This document shows, piece by piece, positions 1-40,861 of a stretch of DNA of 64,000 nt. Each line of letters begins with the position of its first letter. The stretch's first letter is position 1. The stretch spans positions 885 to 64,884 of the forward strand of contig JABDDT010000004.1 of NCBI GenBank assembly GCA_013287475.1, given 5' to 3'. Source of the stretch: Bacteroidota bacterium. Its GTDB lineage: Bacteria; Bacteroidota; Bacteroidia; Chitinophagales; Chitinophagaceae. The position numbers were made by a program, and so were the translations under genes. The notes below the pieces were generated by a model, which was not told the DNA's origin, searched no databases, and saw only the letters and a program-made list of their open reading frames with translations.

Positions 1-55
1 AGTTGCATCAGAAAACAGCATTCGTTTGTGAATGGCTGTGGCATTGGATTCATCG
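1..55. repeat. Inverted copy of 239-293 (fold-back junction at window end)
   Basis: Bases 1-55 are the exact reverse complement of bases 239-293, which lie inside the nitronate monooxygenase gene. The match stops at base 55, and from base 51 on the DNA reads as the expected gene. The five bases CATCG (51-55) fit both the inverted copy and the gene, so the junction has short microhomology. A perfect 55-base inversion of a nearby coding segment, placed at the very start of the sequence and destroying the gene, is typical of a fold-back chimera from amplification or contig-end assembly. A real inversion is possible but less likely. Confidence 0.93.
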
Positions 56-578
56 CCCATCATTCCTTACAACGGCAGAGTCATCAACAACCGGAACGTT
101 TGTATTACTCCAACTGATTAAAGAAAAAGTAAAAGTGCCGGTTATCGCTGCAGGAGGTATTGCAAAAGGAAATGCCATTGCTGCAGCGTTAGCTCTTGGT
201 GCTGATGCTGTTCAGATAGGTACTGCATTCCTGGCAACCGATGAATCCAATGCCACAGCCATTCACAAACGAATGCTGTTTTCTGATGCAACTAAATATA
301 CCAGCTTATCGAGAGCATTTACCGGGAGACTGGGCAGAGGAATAACCAACCGCATTGCAAGAGAGATGAAGCATAAGGAAAATTGCTTTCTCCCTTTCCC
401 GTTTCAGTCGCAGTTTATGTCGCATTTAAGGAAGGCTGCGATTGACCAGGAAAAATGGGACATGATCTTATTTTGGAGTGGCCAGATAGCGCCGGCACTT
501 AAACATACAAAAGCTGCTGAACTGATGAGATCTTTGATTGAAGAAACAACTGGATACTTTGAACATTCAAAAATTTAA
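51..578 (+). CDS. Nitronate monooxygenase family, 5'-truncated
   Basis: This is the C-terminal part (about 175 codons) of an FMN-dependent nitronate monooxygenase (2-nitropropane dioxygenase family), a TIM-barrel enzyme that oxidises alkyl nitronates. It begins at the HRPSFL segment, which in the family follows the EAGG motif carrying the catalytic His. Further on it has the FMN-phosphate strand PVIAAGGI, then GADAVQIGTAFL, and a C-terminal FWSGQIAP segment. The frame stays open upstream of base 51, but that part is the inverted copy of 239-293 and not the true protein. The N-terminal half of the barrel is missing. Only 36 bases separate it from the SDR downstream, so the two are probably co-transcribed. 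The family call is firm; the substrate is unknown. Confidence 0.88.
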   Translation, partial: HRPSFLTTAESSTTGTFVLLQLIKEKVKVPVIAAGGIAKGNAIAAALALGADAVQIGTAFLATDESNATAIHKRMLFSDATKYTSLSRAFTGRLGRGITNRIAREMKHKENCFLPFPFQSQFMSHLRKAAIDQEKWDMILFWSGQIAPALKHTKAAELMRSLIEETTGYFEHSKI

Positions 579-15146: not shown

Positions 15147-15869
15147 ATGGAATCTCTAAAAGGAAAAACAGCATTGATCACAGGAGCCGGTAAAGGACTG
15201 GGTCGCGCTATTTCATTGGCGCTTGCAGCGGAGGGGGTTAACCTGGCGCTTGTTTCCAGAACCAGCCAGGATCTCATTAGCCTGTTGGCTGAGGCCAATA
15301 ATTTAAATTCAGAGATCAGGGCTTCATATCAAATTGCTGATATATCGGATTATTCTGCAGTGTCTGCGTCTATAAGCGCCTTCATCCGTGAGTTTGGTCA
15401 GATTGATATTCTTATCAATAATGCAGGCATCGCTAAGATGGGCAACTTTATGGAGCTACCGGTTAAAGAATGGGAAATCATTATTCAAACTAATTTGCTG
15501 GGATCTTATTATTGTATTCACGAAGTGCTGCCAGCCATGCTTGCAAGAAAAAATGGCGATATAGTCAATGTATCTTCAACAGCGGGACTCAAGGGATTTT
15601 CAAATACCAGTGCATACAGTGCATCGAAATTTGGTTTGGTTGGTCTTTCAGAATCTCTGATGATGGAAGTGCGCTCATCAGGAATCAGGGTATTCACAGC
15701 AAATCCAAGTACCATAGCAACTTCCCTGGCAATGGAACTTAAATTAACAGATGGTAATCCGGAGAAAGTATTGCAGCCTGAAGATTTTGCAGAAATGATT
15801 TTAGCACATCTTAAGCTGCCGCGTCGTGCACTGGTAAAAAACGTTAGTCTCTGGTCAACGAATCCCTGA
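15147..15869 (+). CDS. SDR family oxidoreductase (FabG-like)
   Basis: A 240-residue classical short-chain dehydrogenase/reductase of the 3-oxoacyl-ACP reductase-like group. The nucleotide motif TGAGKGLG is at 12-19, NNAG at 91-94, and the catalytic residues are Ser144, Tyr157 and Lys161 (YSASK). Length is that of FabG-type and sepiapterin-reductase-like enzymes. An NADPH-dependent carbonyl reductase is likely, but the single sequence does not define the substrate, and it is not clustered with fatty acid synthesis genes. It is divergent from the exported protein at 14568-15077. About 100 bases without a recognisable feature follow it. Confidence 0.9.
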   Translation: MESLKGKTALITGAGKGLGRAISLALAAEGVNLALVSRTSQDLISLLAEANNLNSEIRASYQIADISDYSAVSASISAFIREFGQIDILINNAGIAKMGNFMELPVKEWEIIIQTNLLGSYYCIHEVLPAMLARKNGDIVNVSSTAGLKGFSNTSAYSASKFGLVGLSESLMMEVRSSGIRVFTANPSTIATSLAMELKLTDGNPEKVLQPEDFAEMILAHLKLPRRALVKNVSLWSTNP

Positions 15870-34270: not shown

Positions 34271-34983
34271 AAATGAATTGTATTGCTGTTGACGACGAAC
34301 CATTGGCTTTAAAGCTGCTGGCCGATAATATCGGAAAGGTTGCTTATCTTAACCTGGCAGCAACCTGCAGCAATGCATTTGAAGCCATGAAGGCCCTGCA
34401 GGAAAATCAAATAGACCTGATTTTTATCGATATACAAATGCCGGGATTGACAGGTCTTCAGTATATCTCAACTTTGGAAAATAAACCCATGGTCATATTT
34501 ATTACTGCATATAAACAATATGCACTTGAAAGTTATGACTTGTCTGTAGTGGATTACCTGGTAAAACCTGTATCTCTTGAAAGATTTGTAAGAGCCTGCA
34601 ACAGGGCAAAGGAATTGTATGAATTAAAATCATTAAAGAATGTTTCACCGGTGCAGGCAACCCAAGAGTATTTTTTTGTGAATTCTGATTATAGTCAGAT
34701 AAAGGTGATATTCAGTGATATTACATGGATGGAGGGATTGCGTGATTATGTGAAGATATATCTGAAGAGTACCAATAAACCACTTGTTATAAGAAGCAGT
34801 TTAAAATCAATTGAAGAACAGCTTCCTCCGAATAAATTTATAAGAATACATAAATCCTATTTAATTTCTATCGAGAGTATCGTTGCGATCCGGAAAAACA
34901 GTGTATTTATTAAGGAAAAGGAACTTCCTGTCGGTGATACATATCGCGAATCAGTAGATAGACTGGTTACAAAAAAATCATAA
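34267..34983 (+). CDS. LytTR family response regulator
   Basis: A 238-residue response regulator. The receiver domain (about 1-120) has Asp9/Asp10, phosphoacceptor Asp55 (LIFIDIQMPG) and VKPV near the end. The LytTR DNA-binding domain (about 135-235) has SDITWMEGLRDYVKIYL and FIRIHKSYLISIESI. It overlaps the kinase by four bases. LytTR regulators bind direct repeats upstream of targets; no clear site is visible here. It should be phosphorylated by the adjacent kinase and may control the haem-binding protein or outer-envelope genes. Confidence 0.94.
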   Translation: MKMNCIAVDDEPLALKLLADNIGKVAYLNLAATCSNAFEAMKALQENQIDLIFIDIQMPGLTGLQYISTLENKPMVIFITAYKQYALESYDLSVVDYLVKPVSLERFVRACNRAKELYELKSLKNVSPVQATQEYFFVNSDYSQIKVIFSDITWMEGLRDYVKIYLKSTNKPLVIRSSLKSIEEQLPPNKFIRIHKSYLISIESIVAIRKNSVFIKEKELPVGDTYRESVDRLVTKKS

Positions 34984-40156: not shown

Positions 40157-40861
40157 TTATTTATGAATTTTTTTCAGTACTTCCTGCCTGTGTTCCCTGG
40201 ATATGGGAAGGAGTTTACCATCGATTTCAACACAGTTTCCTTCTATCGAATTAACTTTATCAATGCCTATGGTGTATGAGCGGTGAATACGTATAAACTT
40301 TTCGGGAGGTAGTTTTTCTGTAATAGATGTAAGCGACTGGTATGAAATTAAGGAAGACGATTTGGTTGTAACCCTGATATAATCTTTCAGACTTTCTATA
40401 TAGAGAATATCACCCATCATTATTTTTACAAATTTCCGGTCCACTTTTAAAAACAGGTATTCGCTTTCATCACCCGGATTATTATCGGAGAGGTTTTCAG
40501 CACTTGCAACAGATTTGAGTGCTCTCTCAAAAGCTTTTACAAAACGTGGAAACGATATGGGTTTTACCAGGTAATCCAGGGCTTCGAATTCGAAACCTTC
40601 CACCGCATAATCCCGGTAAGCTGTTGTAATAATCACAGGCGGAGGGTCCTTAAGAGTTTCAAGGAAATCAAGCCCGGTTAACATGGGCATTTCAATATCG
40701 AGGAAAATCAAATCATATTTTTCTTCTTTTAAAAGACGAAAAGCATCCAGGGCATTTTCGCAACGCCTGGTCTCGACGTTTTCAAACCGGTGCAAATAAT
40801 TTTCAATAATATCTATAGCCAATGGTTCATCATCAACAATCAGGCATTTGAATGGTTTCAT
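40157..40861 (-). CDS. LytTR family response regulator
   Basis: A 234-residue response regulator with a receiver domain (Asp10/Asp11 region, phosphoacceptor Asp55 in LIFLDIEMPM, VKPI at about 105) and a C-terminal LytTR domain (about 130-230) with GDILYIESLKDYIRVTTK and FIRIHRSYTIGIDKV. Its start overlaps the upstream kinase by four bases (ATGA). It is followed in the same direction, after 136 bases, by the quinoprotein gene, which is a likely target or co-transcribed partner. Confidence 0.94.
   Translation of the reverse strand: MKPFKCLIVDDEPLAIDIIENYLHRFENVETRRCENALDAFRLLKEEKYDLIFLDIEMPMLTGLDFLETLKDPPPVIITTAYRDYAVEGFEFEALDYLVKPISFPRFVKAFERALKSVASAENLSDNNPGDESEYLFLKVDRKFVKIMMGDILYIESLKDYIRVTTKSSSLISYQSLTSITEKLPPEKFIRIHRSYTIGIDKVNSIEGNCVEIDGKLLPISREHRQEVLKKIHK

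Follow-up and report, generated by a model that had tools for sequence, protein, structure and literature searches.

The first 55 bases of the window (the whole 64,000-nt stretch of DNA that was analysed, positions 885–64884 of the 84,546-base contig C4) are an exact inverted copy of sequence from further along the same nitronate monooxygenase gene; they adjoin a scaffold gap, and skipping them restores the gene. We interpret this fold-back as a technical chimera of whole-genome amplification that was caught at a scaffold join, a reading to which we give a probability of roughly 80% and in which the sample is presumed to have been amplified. We consider it practically certain that one kind of artefact or another is involved, and not a biological feature. 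The first-pass annotation had suspected an amplification or assembly chimera, and this suspicion is supported by the gap at base 1, by the restored gene, by four other gaps of the same genome that look alike and by gaps in two of three MAGs whose titles connect them with an MDA study. Most likely we are dealing with an ordinary technical artefact, as first suspected, which can now be located at a scaffold gap and recurs within its source genome (3.16 Mb in 137 contigs, completeness estimate 74%).

Position and anatomy of the fold-back

Upon re-verification, the two arms listed in Table 1 were found to be complementary at 100% over 55 nt, as originally claimed, with a spacer of 183 nt between them, and an inverted match of this length is more than chance. 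The match ends at base 55, where the window continues with CCCATC while the inverted path would go on with GTTGCC, and the locus as deposited carries the chimeric junction string GGATTCATCGCCC. The left end of the window had been taken for the end of a contig. Base 1 is, however, base 885 of C4, of which 884 bases precede the window, and a gap of ten Ns adjoins it directly on the left (C4:875–884); it is therefore not a contig end. Within the 64,000 nt of the window itself the count of Ns is zero. Elsewhere in the window, positions 34550–34568 and 40560–40578 form an exact inverted pair of 19 nt, about 6 kb apart.

Table 1. Features at the left edge of the window (window positions unless prefixed with C4)
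Feature	Position	Strand	Remarks
Fold-back arm	1–55	.	Reverse complement of 239–293; right edge of scaffold gap C4:875–884; bases 1–49 false, 50–55 common with the true path
Source of the fold-back copy	239–293	+	Genuine; within the same nitronate monooxygenase gene
Junction TCATCG	50–55	+	Present in both the fold-back and the true path of the gene (base 55 by inference from homologues); conserved His codon CAT at 51–53
Nitronate monooxygenase gene, genuine 3' part	56–578	+	Joined protein matches PF03060
Nitronate monooxygenase gene, 5' part	C4:313–874		Left of the window
Mechanical ORF, 191 aa	3–578	+	Residues 1–16 purely fold-back (false N-terminus); PF03060 match from residue 24

Restoration of the split gene

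The reading frame that opens at C4:313 reaches ...GFEAGGH at the gap, where the left piece ends in GGTCATC (C4:874). When the left piece, up to this base, was followed by the window from base 55 onward, the result was GGTCATCGCCC and a single open frame, 361 residues long, in which the join reads GGHRPSF. The join rests on the overlap TCATC, which closes the left piece and also occupies window bases 50–54, and base 55 (G) completes the Arg codon. Since the final six bases before the gap recur at window position 80, five shared bases are weak on their own, and it is the homologues that decide the join. In a contig search with peptides that excluded the GGHRPSF motif, 57 homologous loci were retrieved, and all 57 carry the motif ungapped within 10 residues on either side; the same agreement was seen in 6 of 6 match rows from five genomes of the same genus. 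Of the 28 other same-genus genomes searched, 5 yielded the left half of the gene and 23 did not, so that most of them say nothing about the join.

Against PF03060 the joined protein scores 238.4 bits (cut-off 28) over residues 6–351, covering profile positions 3–331 of 331, as compared with 127.3 bits and profile positions 173–331 for the window ORF alone. The solved nitronate monooxygenases 5lsm and 4q4k align across the join; like the members of this family, the gene with the fold-back skipped matches the whole profile and has the GGHR motif, and no notable difference was seen. With the fold-back left out, the real nitronate monooxygenase gene appears to be whole. A search for the true-path junction as one string gave no match in this genome, as expected, since the N gap lies between the two pieces. 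We also considered a transposon or terminal repeat and rejected this candidate, since the left piece holds the continuation of the gene.

These data modify the earlier description of the junction in two respects. A microhomology CATCG at 51–55 had been proposed; a short shared junction does exist, but its extent is TCATC (50–54), or TCATCG if base 55, inferred from the homologues, is included. The gene segment with the conserved His had been thought to be replaced by the inverted sequence, whereas it is in fact displaced and ends the piece left of the gap. This His, within GGHRPSF, we take to be the catalytic base of the enzyme. Because shared bases 50–55 carry the CAT codon, even the false frame reads His-Arg. 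The prediction that the frame would read through the inverted part and yield a false N-terminus holds for the mechanical ORF and extends to two ORFs of the contig, C4:313–915 and C4:857–1462, both of which cross the N gap and have false ends.

Recurrence at scaffold gaps

We sampled 59 contigs of the genome, 855,217 bases in all (50 contigs whole, 9 from the start only), and found 20 N gaps; 19 consist of ten Ns, and the remaining one has 33. At five of these gaps a fold-back, that is an exact inverted copy of nearby sequence, ends precisely at the gap edge, with arms of 55 nt (C4), 58 nt (L038), 61 nt (L048), 86 nt (L051) and 34 nt (L063); at the other 15 there is none. No fold-back occurs at any of the 109 outer ends of the same contigs, and the difference between gap edges (5/40) and outer ends (0/109) gives a Fisher p of 0.001 with edges taken as independent. 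In 16 further contigs represented by their first 500 bases alone, no match of at least 20 nt was seen at the starts, which is a weak test. Exact inverted pairs of at least 34 nt within 5 kb number seven in the 855,217 bases; five touch an N gap, and the two others, one of them nearly a palindrome, lie away from gaps. We rejected the notion that the arm is the assembler's branching k-mer (k = 55), given arms of 34, 55, 58, 61 and 86 nt. In L051, an exact 36-nt inverted pair, 106 nt apart, was observed away from gaps (15480–15515 and 15622–15657); it may be natural or a chimera within the contig.

At two of the other gaps the pieces overlap in a manner that points to the true path. In L051 the terminal 21 bases of the left piece recur from the last fold-back base onward, and with the fold-back skipped there is an open frame of 322 residues whose polyprenyl synthetase match (residues 26–271) spans the join. 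In L063 the first 19 bases of the right piece are found again where the fold-back of the left piece begins, and skipping the fold-back leaves an open frame of 627 residues; here a GH127 catalytic match (95–407) precedes the join and a GH127 middle-domain match (446–520) begins about at it, so that no single domain match bridges the join. The bases shared exactly at the junction number one in L051 (7 of 8 with one mismatch), four in L063 and five in C4, or six with the inferred base 55. In L038 and L048 no overlap of more than 3 bases between the pieces confirms the true join, and bases are therefore probably missing there.

In L038 (G000:C90, 1046–1462) the 58-nt fold-back at its ten-N gap breaks rplP, the gene of ribosomal protein L16; the L16 match goes no further than profile position 116 of 132, and the ORF that follows begins at 1493. 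Completeness estimates that rely on marker genes could be affected by such a break. The broken rplP bears on the idea that some of the living cells truly carry the fold-back as an inverted duplication or hairpin, with the gene inactivated or the sequence forming a hairpin chromosome end. We regard this as exceedingly improbable: a living population should not tolerate the same signature within rplP, and at the window the gene sequence goes on left of the gap and fits. The chimeric string was found, by exact 27-base search, in only one of 33 same-genus genomes, namely this one; its absence from the 32 others is weak evidence because the search was exact and the gene is either absent there or, where found, has about 66–71% DNA identity. 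A variant, in which fold-back inversions arise repeatedly in vivo at microhomologies and stay at low frequency, several genes being present both intact and folded in the population, strikes us as scarcely credible either.

For comparison we turned to three mini-metagenome MAGs titled BW...Nextera (G044, G045 and G046), drawn from the homologous loci L067, L087 and L092 and linked by their titles to a study of Barre Woods soil (PMC7065516). In that study, sorted cells were amplified by MDA with phi29, Nextera XT libraries were prepared, assembly was carried out with SPAdes -sc at k of 25, 55 and 95, and 200 bp were trimmed off all contig ends. In 40 stretches of these MAGs (22 from G045, 8 from G046 and 10 from G044) there are five gaps. 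Three of these, in two of the three MAGs, show fold-backs, which occupy 4 of the 10 edges (one gap with arms of 61 and 68 nt, the two others with 59 nt and 23 nt). The 23-nt arm is within the range of inverted pairs lying away from gaps in the window genome (given as 24–36 nt); if it is dropped, as when 34 nt are required, 2 of the 5 gaps and 3 of the 10 edges remain. None of the 40 contig starts has a fold-back, and G044 has no gap in 200,000 bases. The gap-edge fold-backs of these MAGs are thus like those described here, with ten-N gaps, exact inverted arms (23–68 nt) and bare contig starts; they differ in belonging to other genomes whose link of record to study rests on titles. In one G045 stretch (L163, G045:C42, 1994–2132) both edges of a single gap carry fold-backs, the 61- and 68-nt arms.

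Neither of two assemblies intended as unamplified controls offered an informative ten-N gap. In the isolate G049, 17 of 20 contigs were wholly N, and the sole other gap, of 100 Ns, is flanked on each side by direct repeats of 77 nt and lacks a fold-back. The bulk MAG G047 has no gaps apart from 2 of 20 contigs that read wholly N, and its other outer ends are without a match.

The restriction of fold-backs to gap edges (5/40 as against 0/109 outer ends) would suit a purely computational origin, in which assembly or gap extension doubled back onto its own reverse strand and no chimeric molecule existed. Trimming of outer ends, as in PMC7065516, would however also account for bare outer ends, and it would explain in both sets why tips survive at gap edges only; for the window genome such trimming is presumed. 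The roughly six bases shared at the junction are also short for a k-mer walk at the k of 25, 55 and 95 of PMC7065516, which may not be the k used here, and the arms range from 34 to 86 nt and so do not correspond to one k-mer length. We therefore hold this origin to be quite improbable.

A fold-back arising in library preparation, when sheared or enzyme-cut single strands pair and are filled in without any whole-genome amplification, appears to us unlikely, if less so than the computational origin. The arms in L048 are separated by 1,401 positions, ten of them N, which is beyond the length of usual short-read inserts, and the same signature is present in the MAGs that their titles tie to an MDA study. 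Inverted chimeric reads have been described for both sonicated and enzyme-cut Illumina libraries (PMC10908179), but the model proposed there presupposes that the site naturally has inverted repeats or palindromes, whereas about six shared bases are involved here.

Proposed origin as an amplification chimera

We favour an amplification chimera, with phi29 (MDA) as the probable agent. A strand growing leftward would have copied positions 293 down to 239 and then been displaced; its free 3' end, TCATCG, could have annealed to the matching site at 50–55 on the displaced opposite strand and primed synthesis to the right, which would produce an inverted join lacking the 183 nt in between. Chimeric reads of this kind would fork the assembly path inside the gene, the assembler would leave the right piece with its chimeric tip, and scaffolding would then place the two pieces next to each other across ten Ns; this is the probable order of events. 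Both paths are present in the scaffold, the true one in the left piece and the right piece with its chimeric tip.

This scheme follows the mechanism given by Lasken and Stockwell (2007; PMC1855051), by which displaced 3' ends prime on nearby displaced strands. In that work, 406 of 475 chimeras in single-cell MDA DNA were inversions, 337 of these joined segments less than 10 kb apart, and priming complementarity was 2–21 nt in more than 70% of the junctions. The fold-back described here is likewise an inversion with an intervening deletion; its arms are separated by 183 nt, so that the second segment lies closer than 10 kb, and the bases shared at its junction, five directly and six with the inferred base 55, are within the 2–21 nt given there. 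The earlier chimeras were seen in single reads, whereas ours is seen in an assembly beside a scaffold gap, and our sample is presumed to have been amplified. Against an amplification chimera stand the 15 of 20 bare gaps, the single exact base shared in L051, and the joins of L038 and L048, which have no confirming overlap.

Fold-backs of this kind create false gene ends in a deposited genome (at 5 of the 20 gaps sampled), a result of small practical value. They would escape a trimming step applied to the outer ends of contigs, and a search beside N gaps for exact inverted matches detects them at once. At one further gap of the genome (L129, G000:C97, 260–301) the first 42 nt of the right edge reappear at position 536 in the same orientation, a direct and not an inverted duplication.
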